Source: an uncultured Altererythrobacter sp.
GTDB taxonomy: Bacteria > Pseudomonadota > Alphaproteobacteria > Sphingomonadales > Sphingomonadaceae
Direction of reading: 5' to 3'
Assembly: GCA_913056125.1 (NCBI GenBank)
Contig: CAJXNC010000011.1
Location: 1 to 64,000, forward strand
Length of the DNA stretch: 64,000 nucleotides
The notes under the pieces: model-generated
What the model saw: only the letters and a program-made list of their open reading frames with translations
Databases searched by the model: none
Told to the model about the DNA's origin: nothing
Program-made: the position numbers and the translations under genes
Part shown: positions 10,034 through 48,565 of the stretch, in pieces
How the letters are laid out: each line of letters opens with the position of its first letter
Position numbering within the stretch: position 1 is the stretch's first letter

Positions 10034-10290
10034 TTCCGCCCGCCCATCCGGGCGTGCGATCCTCGGTGCTATTCCCTCCGCCGGGACATTCGTTCCGGCT
10101 GCGGGGCACCTGCGGACGGCCAGTCGGCCTTGCGGTTCGCTGACGGCGAACCGATACTTCTCTTTTTCACTACGGGGCGGATTGATCCGGACCCGCAGGG
10201 TCCGGCAAGCGCGACTGCGCGCCCGCAGCGAGGGCAGCTTGCCTGCCCGGAAGCGAGGATAGCCAAGCGTGCCGGATGGCACGCGCCGGC
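10034..10290 (+). repeat. dispersed intergenic hairpin repeat, copy A (most complete)
   Basis: Non-coding stretch between rsfS and rlmH made of successive hairpins: 10041-10054 (loop ATCC), 10081-10098, 10118-10129, 10134-10152, 10187-10205 (eight perfect pairs, loop GCA) and 10268-10283 (loop GGAT). It shares the core CCCTCCGCCGGGAC and CTGCGGACGGCC with copy D, and the tail CTTGCCTGC with copy C. Open frames across it are short and not conserved. It is the longest copy of the four. Confidence 0.88.
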
Positions 10291-10311
10291 GCTTGAGGCT
10301 AAACAAACCCC

Positions 10312-10734
10312 ATGCTCCTGCATGTAATCTCTCGCGGCAAGATCGGGCGTTCCCCCGAAGCAGAGCTTGTCGCGCGCTATGAAAGGCGCATTTCCTGGCC
10401 GCTCAAGCTGACCGAGCTGCCGGAGACGGGAGGCCGCGTTGCCGAACCGCAAACGCCCTTCAAGACCGTCCTGCTCGACGAAAAGGGTAAGGACCTTTCC
10501 TCCGAAAAACTGGCCGAAACCCTCGAGAAATGGCGCGATGGCGGCATGCGCGAATGCCGCTTCGTGCTCGGTGCGGCGGATGGCCATTCGCAGGCCGAGC
10601 GCGACGAGGCGGACCTGCTGCTGGCCTTCGGCAAGGCGACCTGGCCGCATTTGCTGGCACGCGCCATGCTGATGGAGCAGCTCTTCCGCGCCACCTCCAT
10701 CCTTGCCGGCCATCCCTATCACAGGTCAGGATAG
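10312..10734 (+). CDS. rlmH: 23S rRNA (pseudouridine1915-N3)-methyltransferase
   Basis: A 140-residue SPOUT methyltransferase that methylates pseudouridine 1915 in helix 69 of 23S rRNA, using S-adenosylmethionine. The family features are all present: LLDEKGKDLSSE, the glycine loop FVLGAADGH, and the C-terminal knot with EQLFRA and HPYHR. Length is standard (E. coli protein about 155). The start is ATG 10312, directly after repeat copy A, with no clear ribosome binding site, so the repeat forms most of its leader. The stop codon overlaps the ribosome binding site of the next gene. Confidence 0.95.
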   Translation: MLLHVISRGKIGRSPEAELVARYERRISWPLKLTELPETGGRVAEPQTPFKTVLLDEKGKDLSSEKLAETLEKWRDGGMRECRFVLGAADGHSQAERDEADLLLAFGKATWPHLLARAMLMEQLFRATSILAGHPYHRSG

Positions 10735-10738
10735 GGGA

Positions 10739-11947
10739 ATGGCGAGATGGCTTCCCCTTATCCTGGCTAGTTTCCTGTTTGGCTTTGTCGCGCTGGGGCA
10801 GGGCTCGCAGCTTTATGACAGCCCTGCCGAAACGCGTGCGGCCCTGCGTGCGGCCCTGCAGGAGCGCGAGCAGGCCGAAGCGCGCAGTCAGCGTTTCGAG
10901 CAGGAAGCGCAGCAGGCAGGCGATGCTGCCGAACGTGCGGCGCGCGAGGCCGCTGCGCTCGCCGCGCGTATCCAGGTGGCGGAGGCGGGCATCGCCGCAG
11001 CAGAAGCGCGGATCGAGCTGATCGAGGGCGAGCGCGCGCTCCTGCGTGAAGAACTGGGGCAGGAACAGCAGCCCTTGGTGAAACTGACCGCGGCCCTGCA
11101 GCAATTCACCCGCCGTCCCCTGGTACTCTCTGTGCTACGTCCCGGCGAAGTTCGCGATGTTGTTTACCTGCGCGCGGTCATGTCGAGCACCGTCCCTGCC
11201 GTCGAGGCGCGTACGGTCGATCTGCGAGGACGAATCTCGCGTGGGCGGCAATTGCAGCAGGAAGCGGAGGAGGCGGCCAGCATGTTGCGGGTCGAAGAAA
11301 CGAGCCTGGCCGAGAGGCGCAGCGAACTGGCTGCCGTCGAAACGCGCGAGCGGCTGGCGGCGCAGCAGGCCGAAGGAGGCGCCAGTCGCGAGGCGGAAAG
11401 GGCGCTGGCCCTTGCCGAAGAGGCGCGCGACCTCGACTCGCTTGTGGGCGAGCTCGATCGCGCGGCCGAGCTGCGCCAGCGGCTTGCCGCCCTGCCCGGG
11501 CCGGTCCTGCGGCCTGCCGATGGTGAGGTCGCGCCCGCGAGCGCCGATGCAGCCCTTGCCGAAATACCTTCCGAAAGGCTGACTGCTCCCAGCCCCTATA
11601 TCCTGCCCGTATCGGGCCGCGCGGTGACAGGATTTGGTGCACCGGTGGATGCCGGGCTCAGCCAGGGCCTGGTGCTGGCCCCGATCGGCGGCGCGCAGGT
11701 CGTCGCCCCGGCAGACGGCCGCGTGGCCTTTGCCGGTCCCTATCGCGGCTATGGCGAAATCGTCATCATCGAGCATGGCGGAGGCTGGACCAGTCTCGTG
11801 ACCGGGCTCGCGCGCAGCAATGTCCGCGTGGGTGAGGAATTGCTCGGCGGTGCGCCTATCGGCACTGCCGGAGAAGGTCGCCCGACCGTGGGCGTCGAGC
11901 TTCGCCAGGGCGGGGAGGCGGTCAATCCGCTCGAATTCACGGGTTAG
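10739..11947 (+). CDS. EnvC-like murein hydrolase activator (degenerate LytM domain)
   Basis: A 402-residue exported protein: signal peptide at residues 1-24, a long coiled coil rich in Ala/Glu/Arg to about residue 260, and a C-terminal LytM domain. The LytM zinc site is lost: where active M23 enzymes have HLHFE this protein has VELRQGG, and the HxxxD motif is replaced by GLSQGLVL. This is the pattern of EnvC/NlpD activators, which switch on amidases at the septum rather than cut peptidoglycan. The start is ATG 10739 with AGGGGA overlapping the rlmH stop, which suggests coupling. It is followed by the S41 protease, a conserved order. Confidence 0.88.
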   Translation: MARWLPLILASFLFGFVALGQGSQLYDSPAETRAALRAALQEREQAEARSQRFEQEAQQAGDAAERAAREAAALAARIQVAEAGIAAAEARIELIEGERALLREELGQEQQPLVKLTAALQQFTRRPLVLSVLRPGEVRDVVYLRAVMSSTVPAVEARTVDLRGRISRGRQLQQEAEEAASMLRVEETSLAERRSELAAVETRERLAAQQAEGGASREAERALALAEEARDLDSLVGELDRAAELRQRLAALPGPVLRPADGEVAPASADAALAEIPSERLTAPSPYILPVSGRAVTGFGAPVDAGLSQGLVLAPIGGAQVVAPADGRVAFAGPYRGYGEIVIIEHGGGWTSLVTGLARSNVRVGEELLGGAPIGTAGEGRPTVGVELRQGGEAVNPLEFTG

Positions 11948-12061
11948 GCAGAGCGGTGCCAACCGTCCCGCATCGGTATCCCGTACAAGCTCATAAAGCC
12001 TCATCTGGCGTTCAGGCGTGCGCTGCGATACAAGCTGTCAGGGACGCAACAGGATTTGCCC

Positions 12062-13414
12062 ATGAACTTCGCTTCCGCCTTTCGCGCTGCCGCCTTGTGC
12101 ACTGCCGTTGCATTGCTGCCTGCAGCCACCGCAGGTTTCGCCCAGGTAGAGGGACGCGCTTCGCCCGAATTCGCCCGGCTCTTCGCCACTTACCAGCGAA
12201 TCAAGGCGAGCTATGTCGAACCGGTAGAGGACGAGGTGCTCATTCGCGGCGCGATCGACGGCATGCTTGCCTCGCTCGATCCGCACAGCGCTTACATCGA
12301 TGGCGCGGCACTCGAACGTCTCGAGACGATGATCGATGGCAATTACCAGGGCCTCGGCATTTCGGTGCAGATGGAAGACGGCGCGGTGAAGGTGGTCTCC
12401 CCCTTCCGCGGCAGCCCGGCAGACCAGGCCGGCGTCAAGGCGGGTGATTTCATCACCCATATCGATGGCGAGCTGATCTACGGCCTCGATATCAATGATG
12501 CCGTGGCGCAGATGCGCGGACCGGCGGGCACCTCGATCGACCTGACGATCTTCCGCGAGGGCCGCGACGAGCCGATGGAAGTGACGGTAACGCGCGGCCT
12601 GATCGAGCTGGAGCCGGTCACATGGGAATTGCTCGAAGGCAATATCGGCCATGTCAGCGTTAACGAGTTCAGCCGCGATGTCGGTGTCGACGTGAAGGAT
12701 GCGATCGTCGACCTGCGCACGCAGGCCACCGGTCGCCTCAACGGCATCGTACTCGACCTGCGGCGCAATCCGGGCGGCTCGCTCGACGAAGCGGTGGCCC
12801 TTTCCGACCTCTTCCTCAGCGATGGGCAGATCGTCTCGCAGCGCGGTCGCAACCGCCAGGATACCGTCTATTACGAGGCGGAAACGGTCTATCGCGGCGA
12901 TGTGGCCGAGGGCACCCCGATCATCGTGCTGATCGACGAAGGCTCGGCCTCGGCGAGCGAGATCGTCGCCGGTGCCCTGCAGGACCATCACCGTGCGCTT
13001 GTCATGGGTGAGCGCAGTTTCGGCAAGGGCAGCGTGCAGACGCTGCTGCCGCTGACGCGCGATTCCGCCCTGAAGCTGACCACGGCGCGCTATTTCACGC
13101 CTTCGGGCCGCAGCGTGCAGGAAGGCGGGATCGAGCCCGATATCCGCGTGCCGCAATTGTCCGATCCCGATGCCGAAAGGCGCCAGCGCTACGCCCTGCG
13201 CGAAAGCGATCTGCGCGGCCACCTGGTGAACGAGATCGACTATGACGACGAAGCGCTCGAGGCGGACCGTATCGACGATCCGCGTTTCCAGCTGACCGCC
13301 GAACAGCTCGAGGAGCAGGGCGTGGACGATTTCCAGCTCGATTATGCCGTGCGCACGCTGCGCCGGACTACCGGTATCGCGCTGGCCACGCCGCCCGCTG
13401 CCTCGCGCAATTAG
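12062..13414 (+). CDS. S41 family C-terminal processing protease (CtpA-like)
   Basis: A 450-residue periplasmic serine protease. Signal peptide at residues 1-28, PDZ domain at about 90-165 (GLGISVQMEDGAVKVV), then the tail-specific protease domain. The Ser/Lys dyad is S297 in GSASASEIVAGALQ and K322 in GERSFGKGSVQ, with the 25-residue spacing known from plant D1 protease. CtpA enzymes trim or degrade envelope proteins, including peptidoglycan hydrolases and their activators, so the EnvC gene just upstream is a natural partner (inference). ATG 12062 is preferred over TTG 12056, with AGGA upstream. Confidence 0.92.
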   Translation: MNFASAFRAAALCTAVALLPAATAGFAQVEGRASPEFARLFATYQRIKASYVEPVEDEVLIRGAIDGMLASLDPHSAYIDGAALERLETMIDGNYQGLGISVQMEDGAVKVVSPFRGSPADQAGVKAGDFITHIDGELIYGLDINDAVAQMRGPAGTSIDLTIFREGRDEPMEVTVTRGLIELEPVTWELLEGNIGHVSVNEFSRDVGVDVKDAIVDLRTQATGRLNGIVLDLRRNPGGSLDEAVALSDLFLSDGQIVSQRGRNRQDTVYYEAETVYRGDVAEGTPIIVLIDEGSASASEIVAGALQDHHRALVMGERSFGKGSVQTLLPLTRDSALKLTTARYFTPSGRSVQEGGIEPDIRVPQLSDPDAERRQRYALRESDLRGHLVNEIDYDDEALEADRIDDPRFQLTAEQLEEQGVDDFQLDYAVRTLRRTTGIALATPPAASRN

Positions 13415-13424
13415 GGTCGCGATC

Positions 13425-13892
13425 ATGAACAGTTCGACCGCGCTTGCGCAGCGCCTTGCGCTGGCCGTTCCCTTCCTGCTGCTGGCGGGGGCCTATATCT
13501 CCGAATATGGTTTCGGCCTCTATCCGTGCGAGATGTGCTGGTGGCAGCGCTGGCCGCATTTCGCCGCCGTCGGATTCGCGCTGGCTTCCTTTGCCATTCC
13601 GCCCAAGCGGCTGTGGATCGCAATCGCCGCGGGCGGAACCTTCACTTCGGGCGCAATCGGCGTGTTCCATGCGGGCGTAGAATATGGCTTCTGGGAAGGC
13701 ATCACCGCCTGCGCCGCGGTGGAGGCCGAGGGTGCCAATGCGCTCGATGCCATCCTCAACACCCCGCTTATCCGCTGCGATGTTCCGCAATGGACGCTGG
13801 CCGGCATTTCGCTGGCCGGATTCAATGCGGTGATTTCCATCGGCTCGGCCATTGCGATATGGGTGCTCATGTCGCGCAAGGAGACAGCATGA
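13425..13892 (+). CDS. dsbB: disulfide bond formation protein B family
   Basis: A 155-residue inner-membrane protein with four membrane helices. The first periplasmic loop has the redox pair CEMC (PCEMCWWQRW); the second has a Cys pair around ITACAAVEAEG and IRCDVP. DsbB reoxidises DsbA and passes electrons to ubiquinone. The start is ATG 13425, 10 bp after the protease stop. It overlaps coq7 by ATGA, and a quinone-reducing protein beside a ubiquinone synthesis enzyme makes functional sense. No dsbA is in the window. Confidence 0.9.
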   Translation: MNSSTALAQRLALAVPFLLLAGAYISEYGFGLYPCEMCWWQRWPHFAAVGFALASFAIPPKRLWIAIAAGGTFTSGAIGVFHAGVEYGFWEGITACAAVEAEGANALDAILNTPLIRCDVPQWTLAGISLAGFNAVISIGSAIAIWVLMSRKETA

Positions 13893-14407
13893 AACCCGAC
13901 CGTTCGGAAATGATCCGCGTCGACCAGGCTGGAGAATTCGGTGCGACGCGCATCTATGCCGGGCAATTGGCGGTGATGGGCGATCGCGGTCCGCACTCGG
14001 CGGAGATTCGCGCCATGGCCGACCAGGAAGTGGGTCATCGCGAGGAATTTGACCGGCTGATGGCCGAACGCGGCGTGCGCCCCACCGCCCTGCAGCCTTT
14101 CTGGCACGTAGCCGGCTTTGCGCTTGGCGCGGGCACGGCGATGATCGGGCCGGAAGCGGCCATGGCCTGCACGGCAGCCATCGAAACCGAGATTGACGAG
14201 CATTATTCGCGCCAGCTCGAGGCGCTCGAAAAAGATGGCGACGATCCCGAACTGGCCGACATGATTACGCGCTTTCGCGACGATGAGCGCGAGCATCGCG
14301 ACGCGGCTCTTGCCGCCGGTGCCGAACGCGCGCCGGCCTATCCGCTGCTTTCCGCCGCCATCAGGCTGGGTTGTCGCGCGGCGATCCGCCTTTCGGAAAA
14401 GATTTGA
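13889..14407 (+). CDS. coq7: demethoxyubiquinone hydroxylase
   Basis: A 172-residue di-iron hydroxylase of ubiquinone synthesis. The carboxylate/His ligands fall in the expected places: E in DQAGEFGATRIY, ExxH in DQEVGHREEF, E in ETEIDEHY, and ExxH in DDEREHRD. The C-terminal segment (IRLGCRAAIRLSEKI) is the membrane-contacting helix. Length matches the bacterial enzyme. The start ATG 13889 overlaps the dsbB stop (ATGA), so translation is coupled. Confidence 0.95.
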   Translation: MKPDRSEMIRVDQAGEFGATRIYAGQLAVMGDRGPHSAEIRAMADQEVGHREEFDRLMAERGVRPTALQPFWHVAGFALGAGTAMIGPEAAMACTAAIETEIDEHYSRQLEALEKDGDDPELADMITRFRDDEREHRDAALAAGAERAPAYPLLSAAIRLGCRAAIRLSEKI

Positions 14408-14515
14408 TATTTGTCAGGGTCTGGTGCGCGCGCTTCAGATATGGTTCAGCGCCGTTAGACCCCTATAAGGGCCTTCTGTGTGCTCCTGTGCCCAGGGCCG
14501 AATTTTGAGGATGAG

Positions 14516-15109
14516 ATGATGAAACGCCTGATTGCGCTTGCTGTTACGACCGGGCTGGCCGCCATTGTGAGTGCCCCTGCCACGGCGCAGGACGAGGCGG
14601 GCGACCGCGTCAACACGGTCATCATCTATGGTGACGACGAATGTCCCGAGAGCACCGACGACACGATTACCGTCTGCGCGCGTATGGATGAGAGCGAGCG
14701 CTATCGCATCCCGCCCAATTTGCGGCAGAGCGATGATCCGGCCAATGATTCCTGGACCGCGCGCGTGCGCAGCTTCGAACAGGTCGGCCGTTTCGGCCAG
14801 CAGAGTTGCACCCCGGTCGGCGCAGGCGGTGATCTGGGTTGCACCATCCAGATGATCGAGAACGCCTATGCCGATCGTGCCGAGGGCCAGGATATACGCT
14901 TCAGCCAGTTGATCGAGGAAGCCCGCGCGGACCGCCTGTCCGAAATCGACGCCGAGGCTGCCGCGACGCAGCGCCGCGTCGAGGAGCTCGAGGAATCCTA
15001 TATGCGCCAGCTCGAATCGGAGCGCGATGCCCCGCTTCCGGGCGAGGAAGAGGCAATGCCCCAGGTGGTCGATCCGGACGAAATTCCCGAGCGCCCTGCC
15101 ACCAATTGA
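14516..15109 (+). CDS. secreted Cys-containing protein of unknown function
   Basis: A 197-residue exported protein I do not recognise beyond being similar to conserved hypotheticals of sphingomonads. Signal peptide at residues 1-24 with cleavage near ATAQ. Four cysteines (43, 54, 98, 109) could form two disulfides. The middle has IIYGDDECPESTDDTITVC; the C-terminal 80 residues are charged and helical, ending in an acidic/Pro-rich tail. The start is ATG 14516 with GAGG at 14507-14510; ATG 14519 is equally possible. It stands alone between coq7 and wecB. The upstream DsbB-like protein could supply its disulfides, but that is speculation. Confidence 0.8.
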   Translation: MMKRLIALAVTTGLAAIVSAPATAQDEAGDRVNTVIIYGDDECPESTDDTITVCARMDESERYRIPPNLRQSDDPANDSWTARVRSFEQVGRFGQQSCTPVGAGGDLGCTIQMIENAYADRAEGQDIRFSQLIEEARADRLSEIDAEAAATQRRVEELEESYMRQLESERDAPLPGEEEAMPQVVDPDEIPERPATN

Positions 15110-15149: not shown

Positions 15150-16283
15150 ATGCCCATGGCAGGCCCACGGCGCATCCTGACGGTTTTCGGCACACTTCCC
15201 GAGGCAATCAAGCTGTTTCCGCTGATCCACGCGCTGGAGGCGGATGACCGCTTCGTCAGCCGTGTCTGCGTGTCCGGCCAGCATCGCGGCATGCTCGACC
15301 AGGTGTTGGAGATCTCGGGCGTGGTCGCAGATCACGATCTCGACCTGATGCAGCCCGACCAGTCGCTCGACCAGCTCACAGCGCGCCTGCTCACCGGCAT
15401 CGGCCAGGTGCTGGACGAGGAACAGCCTGACTGGGTGGTGGTGCAGGGCGATACCGCCACCGCGATGAGCGGGGCCATGGCGGCCTATTACCGCAAGATC
15501 CCCGTCTGCCATGTCGAGGCGGGGCTGCGCAGCGGCAATATCTACCATCCCTGGCCCGAAGAGGTGAACCGCAAGGTCATCGGCTCGATCGCAGCGCTGC
15601 ATTGTGCGCCGACCGAGACGGCCAGGAACGCGCTGCTGGCGGAGAATGTCGATCCCGGCATCGTCCATGTCACCGGCAATACGGTGATCGACGCGCTACA
15701 ATGGGTAACGGCCAAGATCGAGGGTGAGCCGCAGCTCGCCGAAGGACTGGCCGAGCTCGAACAGCGTTTCGCGCATAAGCGCATCATCGGCGTTACCTCG
15801 CACAGGCGCGAGAATTTCGGCGAGGGCATGCAGGCGATTGCCGATGCCATTCGCCGCCTTGCCGCGCGGCCCGAAGTGGCTGTGATCTTCCCTGTCCACC
15901 TCAACCCCAATGTACGCAAGGTGATGGAGGCCGAGCTCGGCGGCGTCGACGATGTCGCCATGATCGAACCGCTCGACTATCCGCATTTCGCGCGGCTGCT
16001 CGATATTTGCGACCTGATGCTGACCGATAGCGGCGGCGTGCAGGAAGAGGCTCCGGCGCTGGGCAAGCCCGTGCTCGTCATGCGCGAGACGACCGAGCGT
16101 CCGGAAGGCGTCGAGGCGGGGACTGCCTTGCTGGTGGGCACCGATGCCGATCGGATTGTTTCGGAAGCCAACCGGTTGCTCGACGATCAAAATGCCTATC
16201 AGGCCATGGCCCGCGCGCATAATCCCTTCGGCGACGGCAATAGCGCCGAACGCATCTGCGACCTGCTTTGTCGGCATAGTTGA
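15150..16283 (+). CDS. wecB: UDP-N-acetylglucosamine 2-epimerase (non-hydrolysing), with R-to-L change in the GTRPE motif
   Basis: A 377-residue GT-B fold epimerase converting UDP-GlcNAc to UDP-ManNAc. Active-site motifs are present: QGDTATAMSG (Asp), HVEAGLRSGN (Glu), WPEEVNRK (Glu), TSHRRENFG (His), and DSGGVQEEAP with RETTERPE for UDP binding. One key residue differs: the near-invariant GTRPEAIK reads GTLPEAIK, with Leu16 encoded by CTT at 15195-15197. The Arg (R10 in E. coli) contacts UDP, so activity may be altered; a one-base change from CGT would explain it. No ribosome binding site is clear at ATG 15150 or 15156. wecC follows 209 bp downstream. Confidence 0.9.
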   Translation: MPMAGPRRILTVFGTLPEAIKLFPLIHALEADDRFVSRVCVSGQHRGMLDQVLEISGVVADHDLDLMQPDQSLDQLTARLLTGIGQVLDEEQPDWVVVQGDTATAMSGAMAAYYRKIPVCHVEAGLRSGNIYHPWPEEVNRKVIGSIAALHCAPTETARNALLAENVDPGIVHVTGNTVIDALQWVTAKIEGEPQLAEGLAELEQRFAHKRIIGVTSHRRENFGEGMQAIADAIRRLAARPEVAVIFPVHLNPNVRKVMEAELGGVDDVAMIEPLDYPHFARLLDICDLMLTDSGGVQEEAPALGKPVLVMRETTERPEGVEAGTALLVGTDADRIVSEANRLLDDQNAYQAMARAHNPFGDGNSAERICDLLCRHS

Positions 16284-16296
16284 TTTGCGCTGGAAC

Positions 16297-16410
16297 GGTC
16301 GACGACCAGTCGACCGCAAGGGCGACCGCCCGCCCGCAGGGGCCCCGCACCCGGACTTGTTCCGGGGAAGGGAACAGCCCCGAGGATGCGAGCCCGGATG
16401 GGCGAGCGCA
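16297..16410 (-). repeat. dispersed intergenic hairpin repeat, copy B (inverted, right half missing)
   Basis: The reverse complement matches copies A, C and D: left hairpin at 16392-16403 with loop GGAT on the plus strand (ATCC in repeat orientation), CCGG hairpin at 16351-16365, and a seven-pair hairpin at 16297-16315 with arms GGTCGAC and GTCGACC. It lies in the 209 bp between wecB and wecC, opposite to gene direction, and ends near the wecB stop. Confidence 0.82.
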
Positions 16411-16492
16411 ACACAAACGAGCCCAACATTACCGCTTCGTTTACCTCGCCATTGTAAGGCTTTCCGCGAATTTTGGACGCGAAAGGCAATCC

Positions 16493-38872: not shown

Positions 38873-40165
38873 ATGTCGCCTTTTCCCTGGTTTGATCTTG
38901 CCATCCTGGCCGGGCTGATAATGCTCAATGGCGTTTTCGCCATGTCCGAACTGGCGATTGTCTCTGCCCGTACGGCGCGCTTGCGCATGGCCGCTGAAGC
39001 CGGGTCGTCGAGCGCCCGCATTGCGCTGCAGCTGGCAGCGGAACCCGGCAAATTCCTCTCAACCGTGCAGATCGGGATCACGTTGATCGGTATCGTCGCG
39101 GGTGCCTATTCGGGTGCCACGCTGGGTGAGCCCATGGGTGAGCGGCTGACCTTCCTCGGCCTGAATCCCGCCTATGCCGAAGATGCAGGCTTCGTGCTGG
39201 TGATCGTGCTGACCACCTATTTCAGCCTCGTGGTCGGTGAACTGGTTCCCAAGCAACTGGCCCTGCGCGCAGCCAACCCCATCGCCATGGTTATGGCGCG
39301 GCCGATGGCGCTGCTGGCGCGAATCGCGGCGCCATTCGTCTGGCTGCTCGATTCCTCCTCGAGCCTTGTCATGCGCCTGATCGGCGTGCGCCATCGCGGC
39401 GAGCACGGGCTCACCGCGGAGGAGATCCATATGATCTTTGCCGATGCCACGCGCACCGGCGTGCTCGAGGAACAGGAACGCGCCATCCTTTCCGGCATCA
39501 TGCGGCTCAACGACAAGCCCGTGCGCGAGCTCATGACGCCCCGCACGGAGATCGACTGGATCGATGCCAGCGCTGCCTGGAACGAGATCTGGGAGACCAT
39601 CGTTGAAACACGCCATTCGCTCCTGCCGGTGGCCGAAGGCTCGCCCGACAAGGTGCTGGGCGTAATCAAGGTGCGCGAAGTGCTGGCGCTGCAACTGGCA
39701 GGCAGGCAGATCGACCTGCAGTCTCTGTTGCGCAAGGCCGAGGTCGTGCCGGACCAGCTCGACGCGATGGATGCGCTGCGCGTGTTGCAGCAATCGGGCG
39801 TGGGCATGGCCATGGTGCATGACGAATATGGTCATCTGGACGGGATCGTGACCCCGGCGGACCTGCTCGAAGCCATCGCCGGGAGCTTTGCCAGCCATCA
39901 TGACGAAGGCGATGCGCCCATGCTGGTCGAGCGGGCGGACGGCTCCTTTCTCGTCTCGGGCGCCATGCCGGCCGATGCCCTCGCCGAACATCTCGGCATA
40001 GAGCTTCCCGAAGCCCGCGAATTCGCAACCGCCGCCGGCTATGTGTTGTGGGTTCTCAAGAAGCTGCCGCTCGAAGGCGAGCATTTCGAGGAACAGGGCT
40101 GGCGTTTCGAAGTCGTCGATCTCGATGGCCGGCGAATCGACAAGTTGTTGGTGAGTAGCGTTTGA
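38873..40165 (+). CDS. hemolysin/CNNM family protein (DUF21, CBS pair, CorC domain)
   Basis: A 430-residue inner-membrane protein. The N-terminal DUF21 domain has about four membrane helices (residues 1-190), followed by two CBS domains (RELMTPRTEIDWID, MHDEYGHLDGIVTPADLLE) and a CorC/HlyC domain at the end. The family is linked to Mg2+/Co2+ transport or efflux; it is not a toxin despite the name. It ends where repeat copy C begins. Confidence 0.9.
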   Translation: MSPFPWFDLAILAGLIMLNGVFAMSELAIVSARTARLRMAAEAGSSSARIALQLAAEPGKFLSTVQIGITLIGIVAGAYSGATLGEPMGERLTFLGLNPAYAEDAGFVLVIVLTTYFSLVVGELVPKQLALRAANPIAMVMARPMALLARIAAPFVWLLDSSSSLVMRLIGVRHRGEHGLTAEEIHMIFADATRTGVLEEQERAILSGIMRLNDKPVRELMTPRTEIDWIDASAAWNEIWETIVETRHSLLPVAEGSPDKVLGVIKVREVLALQLAGRQIDLQSLLRKAEVVPDQLDAMDALRVLQQSGVGMAMVHDEYGHLDGIVTPADLLEAIAGSFASHHDEGDAPMLVERADGSFLVSGAMPADALAEHLGIELPEAREFATAAGYVLWVLKKLPLEGEHFEEQGWRFEVVDLDGRRIDKLLVSSV

Positions 40166-40167
40166 GT

Positions 40168-40376
40168 GCGCACCCCCATCCGGGGGCGCTTTCCACGGTG
40201 CTGTTCCCTCCGTCTTTCGGACTGCGGGGCACCTGCGGGCGGGCGGTCGCGGCCCGGACTGCTCCGATTCAGAAATTTCAGAGCGGACATCGGCTCCGTA
40301 GGGGCCGCCAGGCCGACTGGCCGCCCGCAGCTTGCCTGCGCATCTAGCGAGGACGAACGCGCGGATGCGCGTTCGA
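40168..40376 (+). repeat. dispersed intergenic hairpin repeat, copy C
   Basis: Lies between the hemolysin-like stop and the convergent DUF3035 stop. Left hairpin 40173-40186 has loop ATCC, right hairpin 40355-40374 has eight pairs and loop GGAT. It shares CTGCGGGGCACCTGCGG with copy A and CCCGCAGCTTGCCTGC with its tail. A longer stem pairs GCGGCCC with GGGCCGC. Confidence 0.85.
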
Positions 40377-40384
40377 AATGAAAA

Positions 40385-40798
40385 TCAGCCCGGTATTACG
40401 GCCCTTGCGGCCTGTCCGTCGCCTTCGGGCGCGGCAATGATCGCCTGCGTCGTGGTGCCCTTGTCCACCGTATAGGTGTAGACGTCGCCCACGGTTGAGC
40501 GGATCCCGATCTCGGGGTCACCCGCCTGGTCGAGCGCCGAGGTTTCCACCGCGCTGCGAGCTGCCGGGCCGCCGAACAGGGCTTCAAGCGCCTGCTGCGC
40601 GGCAGTGCCTTCAGCCGGGCGCGGGGCGCCGGGAGCAGGGGGAACGAGTTCGAAATCGGGCGGGATCACCAGGGGTGCCTGGCGCTGCACGGCAAACTCG
40701 TCGGGTCGCTCGCGGCTCGAGATCAGGCCGCCGCCGCCACAGGCCGACAACAGTGCCGCAGTGCCGACAACAAGGGTAATCCGGGTGAAATTGCGCAT
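40385..40798 (-). CDS. DUF3035 lipoprotein (BamF-like)
   Basis: A 137-residue lipoprotein with lipobox LSAC (C20). The conserved core is RPDEFAVQRQAPLVIPPDF. DUF3035 proteins of alphaproteobacteria were described as BamF, a subunit of the outer-membrane beta-barrel assembly complex. It follows lspA by 28 bp, the usual order ileS-lspA-DUF3035, and signal peptidase II itself would process this lipoprotein. It is the last gene of the minus-strand run. Confidence 0.85.
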   Translation of the reverse strand: MRNFTRITLVVGTAALLSACGGGGLISSRERPDEFAVQRQAPLVIPPDFELVPPAPGAPRPAEGTAAQQALEALFGGPAARSAVETSALDQAGDPEIGIRSTVGDVYTYTVDKGTTTQAIIAAPEGDGQAARAVIPG

Positions 40799-41339: not shown

Positions 41340-44221
41340 GAGGCGGCGTCCAGCCGCGCCACGACTTCGTCGCAACGGCCACACAGCGCGCCGTCTTCCT
41401 CGACTTCGGGGAGCAAGCGCCAGCAACGGCCGCATTTGTGGTCATCGCTCTTGGTCACGCTCACGCCGTCGCTCTCGACAATGGTGACGGGTCCGCTGAT
41501 GAACAGTTCGGCCATTTCCACGTTGGAGAAGCTGTCCGGAACCGGGCCGGCGGGCACGGCAACCTTGGCTTCCAGGCTGGATCGGATTGTCTTTTCGCGG
41601 CGCAGGGGCTCGATCGCCTCGGTCACTTCCTCGCGCAGTTCCCGCAGGGCATTCCAGCGGGACTGATCCACGCTGGCTGGGGGAATTTCGGGCCATTCAA
41701 GCAGGTGCACGCTGCCCGCGTCGGGGTAGCGCGTGCTCCAGACCTCTTCCGAAGTGAACACCAGTACCGGTGCGGCATAGCGCACCAGCGCGTGGAACAG
41801 CGTGTCGAGGACGGTGCGATAGGCGCGGCGCTTCGGGTCGCCCGGATGATCGCAATAGAGCGAGTCCTTGCGGATATCGAAGAAGAAGGCCGACAGGTCC
41901 TCATTGCAGAAATCGACCAGCGCTCTCGTGTAGGCGTTGAAGTCGAAATCATTGACGGCCTGCTTCAGCTTGGCGTCGAGCTCGCCGAGCAGTGCCAGCA
42001 TATAGCGCTCGAGCTCGGGCATGTCCTCGACCGGGAGCTTCTCTGCCTCGTCGAATTCGCCCAGCGCACCCAACATGTAGCGGAAGGTGTTGCGCAGGCG
42101 GCGATACTGGTCGGCCACGCCCTTGAGGATTTCGGGACCGATGCGGTGGTCCTCGGTGAAATCGACCGATAGCGCCCACAACCGGATGATGTCGGCGCCA
42201 TATTCCTCCATCACCTTGAGCGGATCGACCGTATTGCCGATCGACTTGGACATCTTGCGCCCGTCTGCCGCCATGGTGAAGCCGTGGGTCAGCACCGCCT
42301 TGTAGGGCGCATGGCCGCGCGTCGCGCAGCTTTCGAGCAGCGAGGACTGGAACCAGCCGCGATGCTGGTCCGATCCTTCGAGGTAGAGGTCCGCCGGGCT
42401 GCTCAGTTCGGGCCAGTTGTCGCTTTCGAGCACGAAGGCGTGGGTTGAACCGGAATCGAACCACACGTCGAGGATGTCGGTGATGCGCTCGTAATCCTCG
42501 GCCGCATATTCGTTGCCAAGCAGTTCCTGTGCACTCGCGTCGGACCAGGCATCGACGCCCTTTTCACGAACTGCCTCGACAATGCGCTGGTTGACCTTGG
42601 CATCGACGAGGTATTCGCCCGTCTCGCGGTGGACGAAGAGCGTGATCGGCACGCCCCAGGCACGCTGGCGCGAGAGTACCCAGTCGGGCCGCCCTTCTAC
42701 CATGGAGCCGATCCGGTTGCGGCCCTTTTCGGGAACGAACCGCGTGTCCTTCAGGGCATTGAGAGCTGTCTCGCGCAAGGTCGCGGTATCGCTGGCATCC
42801 ACACTCATCGCCACCGCGCCGCCAATGCCATCGGGCACGGCTACAGGGTAATCGAAAGGCGCCATCGGCTTGTCCATCGGCACGAACCATTGCGGCGTGC
42901 AGCGGAAAATGACCTTGGCCTTCGAGCGCCAGCTATGTGGATAAGAGTGTTGATAATCTGCGGATGCGCTGAGCAAGGCTCCTGCTTCCTTGAGGTCGCT
43001 GCAGATCGGCCCGTCGGGCGCATTGAAATTCGGATTGATGACCGAACGGCGGCGCTCGTCATCCCCGCCGAGCCAGAGCCAGTCATCCTTGTAGACGCCG
43101 CCCGCATCAACGACGAATTTGGGGTTGATGCCATGCGCCTTGCACAGTTCGAAGTCGTCTTCGCCGTGGTCGGGCGCCATGTGCACGAGGCCGGTGCCGC
43201 TTTCGGTGGTGACGAAGTCACCGGGCAGCAAAGGACGCGGCTCGGCATAGAAACCGCCGAGATGGTGCATCGGGTGGCGAGCCACTGTGCCGGCGAGTTC
43301 CGAGCCTTTGAACGTCTTTCCGAAATGCTCAAGGTGTTCGCTGGGATGGGCTGCGTGAAAGCGCTCTATGAACGCCTCAACCAAAGTCTTGGCAACGAGG
43401 AAATTCCGGTTCGTGCCGCCCCATTCGACGATCGCATACTCAACATCCGGCCCATAGGCCAAGGCTTGGTTGACCGGGATGGTCCAGGGCGTGGTGGTCC
43501 AGATCACCGCATGCGCACCGACCAGTTCCTTGATTGGGCTTTCGGTGATCTCGAACGCCACGTCGATCTGGGTCGAGACGATATCTTCGTATTCGACTTC
43601 GGCCTCTGCCAAAGCAGTCTTCTCGACCGGGCTCCACATGACCGGCTTGGCGCCGCGATAGAGCTGGCCGCTTTCGGCAAACTTCAGCAGCTCGGCAACG
43701 ATGGTCGCCTCGGCCTCTGGCGCCATGGTGAGATAGGGCTTGTCCCAGTTCCCGGTCACGCCGAGGCGCTGGAACTGTTCCTTCTGCACTTCGACCCAAT
43801 GCGCGGCATAGTCGCGGCATTCCTGGCGGAATTGTTCGGCCGGAACCTCATCCTTGTTGATCTTGCGCTTGCGGTATTTCTCTTCGACCTTCCATTCGAT
43901 CGGCAGGCCGTGGCAGTCCCAGCCGGGAACGTAGGGCGCATCCTTGCCCAGCAGCGTCTGCGTGCGGACGACGGCGTCCTTCAGCACCTTGTTCAGCGCA
44001 TGGCCGATATGGATATCGCCATTGGCATAGGGCGGACCGTCATGGAGGATGAATTTCTCACGGCCCGCGCGTGCCTCGCGCAGCTGCCGGTAGACCTGCT
44101 CTTCCTGCCAGCGCGCAAGAATGCCCGGCTCCTTCTGCGGAAGGCCGGCCTTCATGGGGAAATCGGTCTTCGGCAGGAAGACGGTGTCCCGGTAATCGCG
44201 CTTGCTTTCAGTCTCGCTCAT
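41336..44221 (-). CDS. ileS: isoleucyl-tRNA synthetase
   Basis: A 961-residue class I synthetase. The HIGH motif is in PPYANGDIHIGHALNK and KMSKS in GRKMSKSIGNTVD. An editing domain lies between, and a C-terminal zinc finger has CGRCWRLLPE and ALCGRCDEV. Length is normal for the bacterial type. The start is ATG 44221, 59 bp after ribF. It overlaps lspA by four bases. Confidence 0.98.
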   Translation of the reverse strand: MSETESKRDYRDTVFLPKTDFPMKAGLPQKEPGILARWQEEQVYRQLREARAGREKFILHDGPPYANGDIHIGHALNKVLKDAVVRTQTLLGKDAPYVPGWDCHGLPIEWKVEEKYRKRKINKDEVPAEQFRQECRDYAAHWVEVQKEQFQRLGVTGNWDKPYLTMAPEAEATIVAELLKFAESGQLYRGAKPVMWSPVEKTALAEAEVEYEDIVSTQIDVAFEITESPIKELVGAHAVIWTTTPWTIPVNQALAYGPDVEYAIVEWGGTNRNFLVAKTLVEAFIERFHAAHPSEHLEHFGKTFKGSELAGTVARHPMHHLGGFYAEPRPLLPGDFVTTESGTGLVHMAPDHGEDDFELCKAHGINPKFVVDAGGVYKDDWLWLGGDDERRRSVINPNFNAPDGPICSDLKEAGALLSASADYQHSYPHSWRSKAKVIFRCTPQWFVPMDKPMAPFDYPVAVPDGIGGAVAMSVDASDTATLRETALNALKDTRFVPEKGRNRIGSMVEGRPDWVLSRQRAWGVPITLFVHRETGEYLVDAKVNQRIVEAVREKGVDAWSDASAQELLGNEYAAEDYERITDILDVWFDSGSTHAFVLESDNWPELSSPADLYLEGSDQHRGWFQSSLLESCATRGHAPYKAVLTHGFTMAADGRKMSKSIGNTVDPLKVMEEYGADIIRLWALSVDFTEDHRIGPEILKGVADQYRRLRNTFRYMLGALGEFDEAEKLPVEDMPELERYMLALLGELDAKLKQAVNDFDFNAYTRALVDFCNEDLSAFFFDIRKDSLYCDHPGDPKRRAYRTVLDTLFHALVRYAAPVLVFTSEEVWSTRYPDAGSVHLLEWPEIPPASVDQSRWNALRELREEVTEAIEPLRREKTIRSSLEAKVAVPAGPVPDSFSNVEMAELFISGPVTIVESDGVSVTKSDDHKCGRCWRLLPEVEEDGALCGRCDEVVARLDAAS

Positions 44222-44280
44222 GATCGCGCGCGCTTAGGCGAGAACGGGCATTGCGGCAACAGGCGAAGGCGCCTGTCGGC

Positions 44281-45204
44281 CTATCCCAGCAAGCGCCTTG
44301 CCTCCTCGCAATCGCGCGTCATCTGCGCCACCAGCTGGTCCATGTTCTCGAAGCGGGCTTCGGGACGAAGGAAATGGCGCAATTCCACCTCCACTTCCTG
44401 GCCGTAGAGATCGCCCTCGAAATCGAAGAAATAGGGCTCGAGCAATTCGATTGGCGGATCGAAGCTGGGCCGCACGCCGAGATTGGCTGCGCCCATGAGC
44501 TCCCGCCCGGTCGCGAGCACGCGGCCGGTGACCGCGTAGATGCCGAAACGCGGGCGCAGGTAGGAGCCGAGCTCCATGTTTGCCGTGGGAAAACCGATCT
44601 GGCGGCCGCGCTTGTCGCCGTGGATGACGGTGCCGCGCATGGCGAAGGGGCGGGTGAGCAGGGCTGCGGCGACATCGCATTCGCCCGCCTTCAGCGCATC
44701 GCGGATGCGGCTGGAGGAGACGACCTGCCCGCCTGCCTTGACCGGGCCGACCTGCCTTGCCTCTATTCCGCAGCTTGCACCGACATCGCGCAGGACTTGC
44801 GTATTGCCGCCGCGATCCTTGCCGAAGGTGAAGTCCTCGCCCGTCACCACGCCGCATGCACCAAGGTGCTCGCCCAGCAGGATGCGGATGAAGTCCTCGG
44901 CCGTCATGGCCGCGAGCTCGTCATCGAAGTCGAAGACCAGCATGGCGTCTGCCCCGGCTTCGGTGAACAATTCTTCGCGCTGGTCGAGGCTGGTCAGGCG
45001 GAAGGGCGGCACGTGCGGCGCGAAATGGCGCACCGGATGGGGGTCGAAGGTCGCCACCAGCACGGGACGGCTTGCGGACTTTGCCCACTCCACCGCTTCG
45101 GCGACGACTTTCTGGTGGCCGAGATGGAACCCGTCAAAATTGCCCAGGGCGATGACCGCGCCGCGCAGACGTTCGGGCAGGGGATCGCGATGGCTCAGCC
45201 TCAT
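44281..45204 (-). CDS. ribF: bifunctional riboflavin kinase / FAD synthetase
   Basis: A 307-residue enzyme making FMN and FAD. The N-terminal adenylyltransferase domain has GNFDGFHLGHQKV, and the C-terminal flavokinase domain has KRGRQIGFPTANM and MGAANLGVRPSF. The start ATG 45204 overlaps the folA stop (ATGA); longer starts lie in folA. Its position next to ileS and lspA is a common bacterial arrangement. Confidence 0.95.
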   Translation of the reverse strand: MRLSHRDPLPERLRGAVIALGNFDGFHLGHQKVVAEAVEWAKSASRPVLVATFDPHPVRHFAPHVPPFRLTSLDQREELFTEAGADAMLVFDFDDELAAMTAEDFIRILLGEHLGACGVVTGEDFTFGKDRGGNTQVLRDVGASCGIEARQVGPVKAGGQVVSSSRIRDALKAGECDVAAALLTRPFAMRGTVIHGDKRGRQIGFPTANMELGSYLRPRFGIYAVTGRVLATGRELMGAANLGVRPSFDPPIELLEPYFFDFEGDLYGQEVEVELRHFLRPEARFENMDQLVAQMTRDCEEARRLLG

Positions 45205-45707
45205 GCGGCGCCTTGCCGCAGATAGGTCACGAAGTGATAGGCGGGCTGGTCGCCTTCTGCATGGTGCCGTTCGCGCACGGATTCGACCCATTCCTCGCCC
45301 AGATGCGGGACATGCGTGTCGCCGTGATAGTCCTGCTGGATCTCGGTGACTTCGACGCGGTGTGCCAGCGGCAGGAATTGCGCATAGGTCTCCGCCCCGC
45401 CGACAATGGCAATCTGGCCGCTGTCATTGCCATGCATGGCAAGATCGAGCGCTTCGCCGACCGAGCGCACCACTTCGGCCTGCGGGCCGCTCCAGCCCGG
45501 ATCGCGCGTCATGACGATATGGCGCCTGCCGGGCAGCGGCCTGCCGAAGCTTTCATAGGTTTTGCGGCCCATCACCATCGGATGACCCATGGTCAGCGCC
45601 TTGAAGCGCTTGAGGTCTTCCGAAAGGTGCCACGGCATGGTGCCGTCCTTGCCGATCGTGCCATTGAGGGCGCGGGCATAGATGAGGAAGATTTCGGGCT
45701 CTCCCAT
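45201..45707 (-). CDS. folA: dihydrofolate reductase
   Basis: A 168-residue NADPH enzyme producing tetrahydrofolate. The substrate/cofactor motifs are present: MPWHLSEDLKRFKALTMG, VMGRKTYESFG and IAIVGGAETYAQFLP. The length equals the chromosomal trimethoprim-sensitive type. It starts 3 bp after the purK stop and overlaps ribF by four bases. No thyA is adjacent. Confidence 0.96.
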   Translation of the reverse strand: MGEPEIFLIYARALNGTIGKDGTMPWHLSEDLKRFKALTMGHPMVMGRKTYESFGRPLPGRRHIVMTRDPGWSGPQAEVVRSVGEALDLAMHGNDSGQIAIVGGAETYAQFLPLAHRVEVTEIQQDYHGDTHVPHLGEEWVESVRERHHAEGDQPAYHFVTYLRQGAA

Positions 45708-45710
45708 GCC

Positions 45711-46772
45711 TCAGCCCACGCGCGTGATGTGGCCCATCTTGCGCCCTTCGCGCGCCTCGGCCTTGCCGTAGAGATGGAGATGCGCCTTTGGATCGGAGAG
45801 GTGGGCCTTCACGTCGAGCGCAACTTCACCGATGAGGTTGTCCATTACGATCGTCCCGGCGACGCTGGACGTATCGCCCAGGGGCTGGCCAACAATGGCG
45901 CGGACATGGTTCTCGAACTGGCTCGTGACCGCGCCCTCAATGCTCCAATGGCCCGAATTGTGGACGCGCGGCGCCATCTCGTTGAACACCGGCCCGTCCT
46001 TCGTGGCGAAGAATTCGAGCGTCAGCACGCCAATATAGCCCAGCGCATCTGCAGCCTGCTTGGCCAGTGCGCGCGCTGCCTCGACCTGCTGGCCGATAAT
46101 GGCCGGTGCCGGCAGTACGCTATGTGCAAGGATGCCGCCTTCATGCGTGTTATGCGTCGAATCCCAGAAACGCACCTCGCCATTGCGGGCGCGCACGAGG
46201 ATCACCGAGAACTCGCATTCGAAGTCGACAAAGCCTTCATAGACGAGGCCGCTGGCGGGCACGGAGACGTCATCCGGCACGGCATCATCGACTTTCCACT
46301 GGCCCTTGCCGTCATAGCCGTCGCGCCGCGTCTTGAGGATGCCGGGCTTGCCGATCTGGGCAATCGCTTCGCCGATCTCCGCCGCGCGGTCGATCCCGCA
46401 AAAGGGCGCGGGCGTGCCGCCAAGCTCGGCAATGAAGCGCTTTTCGCTCAGCCGGTCCTGCGCGACTTCGAGGGCGCGCGGTCCGGGGGCGAGCTTGTGG
46501 TCGGGAATCGGATCGAGCGCGTGGACGGGCACATTCTCGAACTCATAGGTGACGACATCGCAGGAAGCAGTGAAGGCGCGCATAGCCTCGGCATCGTCCC
46601 ACGCCGCGCTGGTGAAATGCGCTGAGACCTCCGCCGCCACGCTTTCCGCCTCCGGCGCGAAGATATGGCACTTATAGCCAAGCTGCGCGGCTGCCATGGC
46701 GATCATCCGACCGAGCTGCCCGCCGCCGAGAATCCCGATCGTCGCGCCTGCAGGGAGGGCCTTGAAGCTCAT
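45711..46772 (-). CDS. purK: N5-carboxyaminoimidazole ribonucleotide synthase
   Basis: A 353-residue ATP-grasp enzyme that carboxylates AIR with bicarbonate in purine synthesis. N-terminal ILGGGQLGRMIAMAA, ATP-grasp core with YDGKGQW, and the C-terminal EMAPRVHNSGHWSIEG. It acts directly before PurE, whose gene lies 13 bp upstream on the same transcript. Confidence 0.97.
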   Translation of the reverse strand: MSFKALPAGATIGILGGGQLGRMIAMAAAQLGYKCHIFAPEAESVAAEVSAHFTSAAWDDAEAMRAFTASCDVVTYEFENVPVHALDPIPDHKLAPGPRALEVAQDRLSEKRFIAELGGTPAPFCGIDRAAEIGEAIAQIGKPGILKTRRDGYDGKGQWKVDDAVPDDVSVPASGLVYEGFVDFECEFSVILVRARNGEVRFWDSTHNTHEGGILAHSVLPAPAIIGQQVEAARALAKQAADALGYIGVLTLEFFATKDGPVFNEMAPRVHNSGHWSIEGAVTSQFENHVRAIVGQPLGDTSSVAGTIVMDNLIGEVALDVKAHLSDPKAHLHLYGKAEAREGRKMGHITRVG

Positions 46773-46785
46773 TGCCCGTCCAGTC

Positions 46786-47271
46786 CTATTCGTCAGAAGG
46801 CGTCTGGGCCACGGCGTCGGTTTGCGCAGCGCGCCACTCCTGGAGCCTCACCGACAAGTCAGGATCCGAGAGCGCGAGGATCGATGCGGCCATCAGGCCG
46901 GCATTGGTCGCCCCTGCCTCGCCAATGGCCAGCGTCCCGACCGGCACGCCGGCGGGCATCTGCACGATGGAAAGCAGGCTGTCCTGGCCCGAAAGTGCGC
47001 GGCTCTTCACCGGTACGCCGAGCACGGGCAGGTGCGTCAGCGCCGCGACCATGCCCGGGAGGTGCGCGGCGCCGCCGGCGCCGGCAATGATGACCTTGAA
47101 GCCTTCAGCCTCCGCGCCCTTTCCGAAAGCGTGCAGCCTGTCTGGCGTGCGATGGGCGGAAACGATGCGGTCGTCATGCGCGACGCCAAGCTGGTCGAGC
47201 ACCTTGGCGGCGCATTTCATGGTCGACCAGTCGGACTGGCTGCCCATGATGATTGCTACTGGCGCGGACAT
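46786..47271 (-). CDS. purE: N5-carboxyaminoimidazole ribonucleotide mutase
   Basis: A 161-residue class I PurE that moves the carboxyl group made by PurK. The active-site motifs [18 protein letters not shown] and [12 protein letters not shown] are intact. It lies 5 bp after gpmA and 13 bp before purK. The order purE-purK matches the usual operon. Confidence 0.97.
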
Positions 47272-47276
47272 CTCTC

Positions 47277-47963
47277 TCAGCGATCCTTCAGGTAATGCCG
47301 TTCACCCGGCTGCATGTTGTCGTCGAAGTCGTAGACGATCGGCTGGCCGGTGGGAATCTCCAGCCCGGTGATATCGTCATCCGAAATGCCCGAGAGGTGC
47401 TTCACAAGCGCGCGCAGCGAATTGCCATGGGCGGAAATCATCACCGTCTCGCCGCTCGAAAGCACGGGCAGGATGTCGCTTTCCCAATAGGGCAGTACGC
47501 GCTCGATCGTCAGCTTGAGGCTTTCGGTGTCGGGAATGGGAATGCCGGCATAGCGCGGATCCTTGGACAGGTCATAAGGCCCGTCGCGGTCCATCGGCGG
47601 CGGCGGCACGTCGAAGCTGCGGCGCCAGATCTTCACCTGTTCATCACCGTGCTTCTCCGCCGTCTCGGCCTTGTTGAGCCCGGTCAGCCCGCCATAGTGC
47701 CGCTCATTGAGGCGCCAGTCCTTGGTCTCGGGGATCCAAAGCCGCCCGCAGGCTTCCAGCGCCAGGTGCAGCGTCTTGATCGCGCGCAGCTGGACCGAGC
47801 AGAAGGCGCGTGTCGGCAACAGGCCCTTTTCCTCGAGCAGCAGGCCGGCGGCTTCCGCTTCGGCAACGCCCTTGTCGGTCAGGTCGACATCCCACCATCC
47901 GGTGAAACGGTTTTCCAGGTTCCACTGGCTCTGGCCGTGGCGGACGAGGATCAGCGTGGGCAT
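47277..47963 (-). CDS. gpmA: 2,3-bisphosphoglycerate-dependent phosphoglycerate mutase
   Basis: A 228-residue glycolytic enzyme of the histidine phosphatase superfamily. The catalytic His is in [10 protein letters not shown], with [21 protein letters not shown], and the second His in [12 protein letters not shown]. It heads the minus-strand run toward purE, purK, folA, ribF, ileS, lspA and DUF3035, whose gaps are all under 60 bp. Confidence 0.96.
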
Positions 47964-48104
47964 TTTGTCTCCATTATCTTGGCCCCTGACCGTTTCCGAC
48001 GTCCAACCTTTCGATTGAGCCCCGACAGACTATCGGGAGGTTGGCCGGGGGAGCGTGCTGGAGCCGCCTTGCCGCGAAAGCGACCGAATAGTGAGCGCCA
48101 GCCG

Positions 48105-48248
48105 TTAGCTTTTCGGCTCGTCCTTGGGAAGGGGCGCGTGGTCTTTCGCTTCCATCGCCCGGGCTTGCGATTTCCGGCGGCGCAGGTTTTCGCGCAGCTT
48201 GGCTGCCAGCCGTTCTTCGCGCGATGCCTTGTCGTCCGCAGTGCTCAT
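48105..48248 (-). CDS. small charged protein of unknown function
   Basis: A 47-residue very charged protein with core REERLAAKLRENLRRRKSQA, predicted as a single amphipathic helix. Similar short proteins recur in alphaproteobacteria as conserved hypotheticals. The start is ATG 48248; longer in-frame extensions cross the tRNA-Thr gene and are not real. It stands between gpmA and tRNA-Thr. Existence is supported mainly by the conserved-looking helix. Confidence 0.6.
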   Translation of the reverse strand: MSTADDKASREERLAAKLRENLRRRKSQARAMEAKDHAPLPKDEPKS

Positions 48249-48362
48249 GCCTGCCCAAATGCCGAATCTGGCCCCGCGGCACAAGCTTGGCTTGACTTTC
48301 CCCTCCCCCGCGACAATAGCGCGCGCCTGATCCGCCCCCTCGCAGAAATCGAGGCTGGCAGC

Positions 48363-48437
48363 GCTGCTGTAGCTCAGTGGTAGAGCGCACCCTTGGTAAG
48401 GGTGAGGTCGAGAGTTCAATTCTCTCCAGCAGCACCA
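48363..48437 (+). tRNA. tRNA-Thr (GGT)
   Basis: A complete cloverleaf. The acceptor GCTGCTG pairs with CAGCAGC, the anticodon stem CACCC pairs with GGGTG around loop TTGGTAA (anticodon GGT), and the T arm has GAGAG, TTCAATT, CTCTC. The CCA end is encoded (48435-48437). Repeat copy D follows 4 bp later. Confidence 0.97.
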
Positions 48438-48441
48438 TTTC

Positions 48442-48565
48442 TCACATCCTCGCGCCACTCCCTCCGCCGGGACTTCGTTCCGGCTGCGGGGGCGCTGCGG
48501 ACGGCCGGTCGGCCTTGCGGCTCCTCTGGAGCCGAAAGCCGCGATCTAGCCCGCATTTGCTTGCT
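48442..48565 (+). repeat. dispersed intergenic hairpin repeat, copy D (ends missing)
   Basis: Directly follows tRNA-Thr. Hairpins at 48467-48483 (six pairs, CTTCG loop), 48503-48514 (GGCC arms) and 48519-48533 (GGCTCC/GGAGCC, loop TCT). It shares CCCTCCGCCGGGAC, TTCGTTCCGGCTGCGGGG and GTCGGCCTTGCGG with copy A. The ATCC- and GGAT-loop end hairpins are absent. Confidence 0.85.

Follow-up and report, generated by a model that had tools for sequence, protein, structure and literature searches.

Four-hairpin, REP/BIME-like elements at gene ends in Altererythrobacter and related genera: an untagged family that is probably old and mostly inherited in place

Four intergenic gaps in a 64,000-nucleotide stretch of an uncultured Altererythrobacter sp. 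(contig CAJXNC010000011.1, positions 1 to 64,000; the window) carry copies of one structured repeat, which raises the question of what kind of element this is and why it lies where it does. A first-pass annotation, made from the sequence alone, had placed the copies at 10034-10290, 16297-16410, 40168-40376 and 48442-48565 and had suggested either elements like REPs and BIMEs (repetitive extragenic palindromes and bacterial interspersed mosaic elements) or a structured RNA. All four copies are present on inspection, and each lies between genes that could be identified on both sides. We have found that they belong to a family with a defined anatomy, stems that change in matched pairs, a placement at gene ends and recurrence at the same sites in different genomes. 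The reading that we favor, with a probability of roughly 0.55, is that of a clade-specific, untagged REP/BIME-like family that is old, is mostly inherited in place and would act as DNA at gene ends.

The unit of the family is a half-element of ~100 nt made up of four hairpins in series (H1 to H4), which run from the outer to the inner end as a TTTGTTT-like end, H1, a TCCTCG linker, H2, H3, TTG and H4. H1 has an 8 bp stem and a 4 nt loop that, together with its closing pair, mostly reads CATCCG or CCTCCG (C-[A/C]TCC-G). H2 is formed by GGTGC...GCACC enclosing an inner variable hairpin, and H3 has the form GGCC-RGTC-GGCC, with an RGTC-like loop. A complete element consists of two halves in inverted orientation, facing inwards, with the TTTGTTT-like motifs at its outer ends. 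The 119 loci searched gave 170 half-matches, forming 47 pairs, that is, complete elements, and 76 singles; where neighboring halves lie within 300 bases of each other, 47 of the 48 pairs face inwards, the exception being a tandem pair. The length of a complete element is 208-337 bp (median 239, with 30 of the 47 within 225-251), and its centre is most commonly 36 bases (10 of 47). The H1 ends are of two kinds, the second of which has GCCTCAAGCGCCGGCG outside the hairpin. The outer TTTGTTT-like motif is found in all three classes of end, whatever the end faces, and is therefore part of the element; in some elements the stop codon of the neighboring gene overlaps it, as in copy 3 of the window, where the TGA (40163-40165) overlaps the outer end GTTTGAG. 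At the left flanks of four loci (L122, L134, L124 and L104) a terminator-like hairpin is visible by eye, its T-run merging into the outer TTTGTTT.

The two sides of the stems change together. Ten halves from this genome, the very sequences from which the structure was drawn, show pairing in 95.0% of cells and changes on both sides in 14 of 35 pairs, with 34 double-change cells against 9.1 in shuffles (0 of 500 shuffles reach 34). In 94 distinct halves from other genomes, aligned (A4, A5) by fitting to a covariance model, R1, that was built from 10 half-elements of this genome alone, 94.6% of cells are paired and 28 of 34 pairs change on both sides; double-change cells number 571, compared with 172 after shuffling and 46-103 when partners are slid. 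The end stems are highly varied: 80 different 8-base arms occur among the 153 of 164 distinct halves that have a clear H1.

The family is numerous in its own genome (3.0 Mb), where blastn gave 21 matches and R1 gave 27 at E<=1; at E<=0.01 there are 24 half-elements at 19 places, with 150 of 5087 candidates scored and 10 of the 24 halves having been the model's input. In three relatives, where 150 candidates were likewise scored per genome, 41, 43 and 26 halves reach E<=0.01. Among 41 genomes searched by blastn, 24 of the 25 of the genus matched, the present one included, and 2 of the 16 others matched weakly; R1 matches one of these two outside loci, L062, at a weak 25.2 bits. In an order-wide sample scanned with stricter filters and at most 18 candidates scored per genome, 48 of 197 genomes match R1 (E<=0.001), in 17 of 62 genera and all within one family. 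Carriers, represented by 45 named stretches, include Aurantiacibacter, Alteraurantiacibacter, Qipengyuania, Croceibacterium, Altererythrobacter, Parerythrobacter, Pontixanthobacter, Erythrobacter, Porphyrobacter and Blastomonas marina. These 45 loci were retrieved by a pattern demanding the CATCCG loop and the next linker, so loop conservation in them is by construction, and the loci analyzed throughout are the best-scoring ones. A looser pattern, ATCCTCG...CTGCGG, gave 16 matches, mostly outside elements. Short shared blocks by themselves could mislead, but the numbers of half-elements in one genome and of matching genomes refute chance or a coding artefact, against which the stem covariation also speaks, and we regard this explanation as practically eliminated. 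A covariance model, as the first-pass annotation had proposed, has in this way found further copies in this genome and in related ones, and no Rfam family explains those of the window: at gathering scores Rfam gave two tRNAs and no other match in the whole window.

The elements are placed at gene ends. Of 119 distinct elements, 57 lie between codirectional genes, 46 between convergent and 4 between divergent ones (2 are called inside genes and 10 are unclassed), against 241, 40 and 61 for the other gene pairs of the same loci. For the 116 H1 ends that face a stop codon the commonest distance is 7 nt, and 85 lie within 20 nt. Where both gaps are known (n=113), 83 H1 ends are <=20 nt from the stop against 52.5 expected for uniform placement in the remaining gap, a count reached in 0 of 10000 simulations. 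H1 ends facing starts are at chance (6 of 34 within 20 nt, 6.0 expected); inner ends show no excess over chance at either stops (10 of 36, 14.2 expected) or starts (4 of 23, 6.7 expected). Among convergent complete elements, 10 of 21 have both ends <=14 nt from the two stops. Because the simple codon-score script used to call genes misses short genes and tRNAs, some of the ends scored as distant from a stop may in fact lie close to one. H1 ends or degenerate halves were also seen directly after apparent tRNA 3' ends (L066, L038, L050, L084, window position 48438 and L191/L226), and the tRNA-Thr site of copy 4 is likewise occupied in genome G002 (L191/L226 being among the loci concerned).

A start only a few nucleotides past the stop codon and the scarcity of elements between divergent genes would also suit an RNA element of the 3' untranslated region, whose post-stop hairpins could block 3' exonucleases, hold the terminating ribosome or aid the end of transcription. 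The fold of the single strand is in keeping with this, since each of the 8 halves folded does better than its shuffles do on average (z -2.3 to -4.2). The four-hairpin layout is the best-energy fold in L006, L014 and L016, the remaining folded halves show it partly, and L008 and L010 prefer other folds. The T-rich motif, however, precedes H1 and does not follow a hairpin, and an ordinary intrinsic terminator was therefore rejected. Selection on transcribed RNA is, moreover, expected to favor GT pairs on the transcribed strand, and departures from pairing in H1, H3 and H4, few in all, comprise 25 GT and 39 AC (p=0.10), with score limits excluding 11, 36 and 103 of the 164 halves for the three stems, respectively. 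Single halves read in the sense of the preceding gene give 5 GT and 9 AC. GT thus does not exceed AC, and selection on RNA is not supported; elements between convergent genes are readable from both sides, and such symmetric use could hide a wobble bias. From the absence of this bias we cautiously read the stems as DNA palindromes, 64 GT or AC cells being few. The suggestion of a structured RNA has accordingly lost ground, the window holding no Rfam match besides its two tRNAs, and we consider an RNA element unlikely, if worth keeping in mind. A CsrA site in the CGGATG loop was dropped on reading the stems alone, with no search for CsrA made.

Do the elements stay in place or move? Sites were compared between genomes, with empty sites, remnants and target duplications judged by eye. 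At the copy-1 site, six of 12 congeners hold an element (G001, G002, G003, G007, G008 and G009), differing in type and direction, and six are without one, of which G005 may keep a short remnant. At the copy-2 site, compared in three congeners, G004 has a half in the opposite direction and G005 and G008 have none. Other sequences also occur at these sites: the rsfS-rlmH gap of G010 (L174) and G006 (L177) holds another inverted repeat, of the CCCTCCCGC...GCGGGAGGGG type, where other species hold the element; G002 (L176) and G011 (L178) have an additional small gene between rsfS and rlmH, in which two CxxC pairs can be read by eye; and the wecB gap of G008 (L181) has a gene of ~1 kb, by eye an apparent alpha/beta-hydrolase or esterase, where the window holds copy 2.

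Across the whole set, when elements are grouped by their neighboring proteins, 79 of the 119 fall into 24 site clusters. The three largest have 9, 7 and 6 members, and in a few (L124, L127, L138) two elements from a single locus make up all or part of the cluster. In a control on G002, 19 of the 42 proteins adjoining the 22 elements read there have a relative that adjoins an element elsewhere in the sample, against 2 of 36 for proteins farther away in the same loci (Fisher p 7.5e-5); by locus, 12 of the 22 share a site. End stems at orthologous genes differ at 2.97 of 8 positions against 3.43 by chance, a value as low as this arising in 4 of 2000 shuffles (146 pairs, duplicate records of one genome having been merged beforehand), and 4 of 9 pairs with ~90% or more protein identity have identical H1 arms. 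Site recurrence and end-stem likeness point to inheritance in place with fast stem change, over fresh insertion. Identity between halves from different genomes is 80.8% at the same site and 79.8% at different sites; it is 79.3% within single genomes, one of which is somewhat more uniform at 82.9% (~15% of the different-genome, different-site pairs were drawn, and some records of one genome were counted apart). Such near-equal identities suit long residence under shared constraint, although ranking by the model compresses differences of this kind.

The most informative single case is a lineage-specific set of ~14 similar complete elements in G002 (L210-L225), which have a common interior and differing end hairpins. 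The interiors of 14 of these elements are 88.6% identical on average (91 pairs), whereas their left H1 arms differ at 3.30 of 8 positions and their right ones at 2.62 (33-41%), with 6-8 of the 8 pairs holding in each H1. The same arm types are found at either end relative to the interior (L219 compared with L223 and L224). The simplest account of the set is that resident elements swap interiors by recombination and retain their own ends. On the left flanks of L211, L215, L217 and L220 a lone H1 stands a few bases before the complete element, perhaps the remnant of an older one; in L215, L217 and L220 it retains the first letters of the linker.

This burst is also what an actively moving miniature transposon that carries TTTGTTT ends and favors gene ends, akin to a REPIN or a miniature inverted-repeat transposable element, might leave behind, and the terminal inverted TTTGTTT/AAACAAA, the inverted doublet structure and the copy-1 sites that are empty in half of the congeners would fit it as well. 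Yet 9 of 13 burst loci adjoin genes that flank elements in other genomes, and the ends at orthologous genes are, as given above, more alike than chance. No clear target duplication was found by eye in 47 paired elements (with no strain-level empty site for comparison), and plasmid and phage records gave no match at E 1e-5 to one 271-base query, which diverged copies could escape. The first-pass annotation had also suggested looking for a gene of a REP-associated tyrosine transposase (RAYT). Tests for a mover covered the Y1 family (PF01797, the Pfam model of the RAYT family): the genome itself has no such gene, and across genomes the Y1 genes do not track the element, occurring in 6 of 56 element-bearing genomes (this one included) and in 4 of 10 without a model match. 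A RAYT-driven REP was rejected on the same grounds. Taking both sides together, we hold an actively moving element to be improbable. H1 as an independent repeat invaded by the interior was likewise rejected, H1 being seldom alone in G000 and G002: in G000, 13 of 18 matches to the H1 pattern lie inside model matches and 5 outside, and of the 40 in G002, four fall outside model matches and two are solitary H1s immediately next to complete elements.

How does the family relate to known repeats? In being intergenic, palindromic and numerous, with inverted pairs at gene 3' ends, it bears out the description as REP/BIME-like. As in BIMEs generally, the palindromic units are repeated, intergenic (2 of 119 elements are called inside genes) and of alternating orientation, inward in all but one of the 48 neighboring pairs. 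The elements resemble the BIMEs of E. coli in being mosaic, paired and near stop codons, and differ from them in sequence (by reading), arm size and host. REPs near stop codons in E. coli have an effect on translation. Rhizobial RIME/ABC mosaic elements are large intergenic palindromes of alphaproteobacteria, to which the present elements can be likened by that general description. Beside its element, locus L135 has a different repeat, starting CGTCATTGCGAG, which we take to resemble the CGTC REP known from alphaproteobacteria. REPINs consist of two inverted units with a short centre, as does a complete element here. The present family differs from REPIN/RAYT systems (PMC3116915, PMC8049555) in having no association with a Y1 transposase and no GTAG column beside H1.

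A close comparison is with the GTAG and CGTC REPs of PMC3733652, as far as its accessible text describes them. Like those, the present elements are intergenic palindromes downstream of genes that favor unidirectional or convergent gene pairs, form inverted dimers and have stems of similar length; those REPs are tagged stem-loops of 20-40 bp, in contrast to the ~100 nt, four-hairpin halves found here, in which H1 is rarely alone. A GTAG REP was rejected because columns -10 to -1 outside H1 are TTTGTTT-like and without GTAG, and the linker inside H1 is TCCTCG. The same text has GTAG REPs often providing the stop codon of the neighboring gene. CGTC REPs, which it reports from alphaproteobacteria including sphingomonads, are single stem-loops of 8-9 bp with a 4-5 nt loop, AT at stem positions 1-2 and a CCA tail; this identity was rejected too, the outermost counted H1 pair being G-C in 136 of 153 halves, the flank being TTTGTTT-like with no CCA tail and the unit having four hairpins. 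GT pairs in REP stems are cited there as a sign of transcription, unlike the present stems, in which GT does not exceed AC. In the portion of PMC12306157 (RepRanger) available to us, a table counts REPs in Erythrobacter cryptus, which also carries the present family (L133); the figure is a tool's count over one genome, with no description of this family alongside it. The open-licence literature on repeats of the clade, in the parts accessible, yielded no description of the family either, and the earlier remark that it matches no named family holds for Rfam and the REP papers searched. Our best reading is that the family is new, in that it matched no named repeat or RNA family testable here.

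Returning to the window, the copies lie in 4 of its 10 gaps of >=150 bases by our gene calls (Table 1). The first description can be refined: copies 1 and 3 each consist of two halves in inverted orientation, and copies 2 and 4 are single half-elements. Copy 4 ends at ~48534 rather than 48565 and has no recognizable H1 because the 3' end of the tRNA-Thr (called by ARAGORN) occupies the H1 position. The six model matches in the window (the four within copies 1 and 3 in Table 1, 16297-16410(-) and 48425-48533(+)) all have E 3.1e-5 or better, and the next two have E 0.49. The right half of copy 1 has the second kind of H1 end, GCCTCAAGCGCCGGCG preceding the CATCCG hairpin when read inwards; the H1 end of copy 2 is at 16410, with ACACAAA outside H1.

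Table 1. Positions of the four copies and their parts in the window
Feature	Position	Strand	Context or basis
Copy 1, complete element (two inverted halves)	10029-10306	+	Between rsfS (stop 10026-10028) and rlmH (start 10312)
Copy 1, outer TTTGTTT-like end, reads TTCGTTT	10029-10035	+	Immediately 3' of rsfS stop codon
Copy 1, left half: H1 (CATCCG loop), H2, H3, H4	10035-10152	+	Model match, 115.3 bits
Copy 1, centre spacer	10153-10187	.	From model matches
Copy 1, right half	10188-10306	-	Model match spans 10188-10271; remainder by eye
Copy 2, single half	16297-16417	-	Between wecB (stop 16281-16283) and UDP-ManNAc dehydrogenase gene (start 16493)
Copy 3, complete element	40160-40384	+	Convergent CorC/PaeA-like gene (38873-40165) and DUF3035 gene (40385-40798)
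Copy 3, left half	40167-40276	+	Model match, 62.8 bits
Copy 3, right half	40292-40377	-	Model match, 57.7 bits
Copy 4, half without recognizable H1	48438-48534	+	Immediately after tRNA-Thr (48363-48437), before bacterial PH-domain gene (48598)

On the reading of an old family inherited in place, the elements would mostly pass from genome to genome where they stand and sometimes be lost, and recombination within a genome may occasionally homogenize their interiors. The family likely began as a small mobile element; the Y1 transposases, the movers tested for, did not supply its mover. The working form would be DNA, with hairpins on either strand. A putative hairpin-reading protein is suggested by the conservation of the linkers and of the H1 loop and its closing pair, and we know of no protein that reads such H1 hairpins. 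The most likely benefit would be that of a DNA boundary at gene 3' ends, perhaps by letting gyrase or a nucleoid protein land where positive supercoils accumulate, by analogy with what has been proposed for E. coli REPs; a remark on gyrase at E. coli REPs and BIMEs appears in the accessible text of PMC3733652. A more specific version, in which a dedicated hairpin-reading protein holds the loops and linkers of this boundary element and the end stems are rewritten quickly in matched pairs, is speculative and in our estimate doubtful. Hairpin-templated copying (template switching) could rewrite the end stems in this way and so leave site-private, well-paired ends around an interior shared across the genome.

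Several observations weigh against the reading that we favor. The element is absent from the copy-1 site in six of 12 congeners and is thus not essential there; same-site halves across genomes are hardly more alike than different-site ones; and the shuffle test on end stems takes no account of genome relatedness. The wobble test rests on just 64 cells, the genomes sampled had been ranked by their likeness to the copies found here, and transposition with changed ends would explain the G002 burst as well as recombination does.

Interspersed palindromes, common and poorly explained in bacterial genomes, could be parasites or could belong to the host. Here many intergenic sites are occupied across genera, the elements are strictly placed at gene ends and Y1 transposases do not explain them, and it is this combination that makes the idea of a host function testable. 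The shared interiors, set against nearly private and well-paired end stems, offer a natural case for how stems change and yet keep their pairing.

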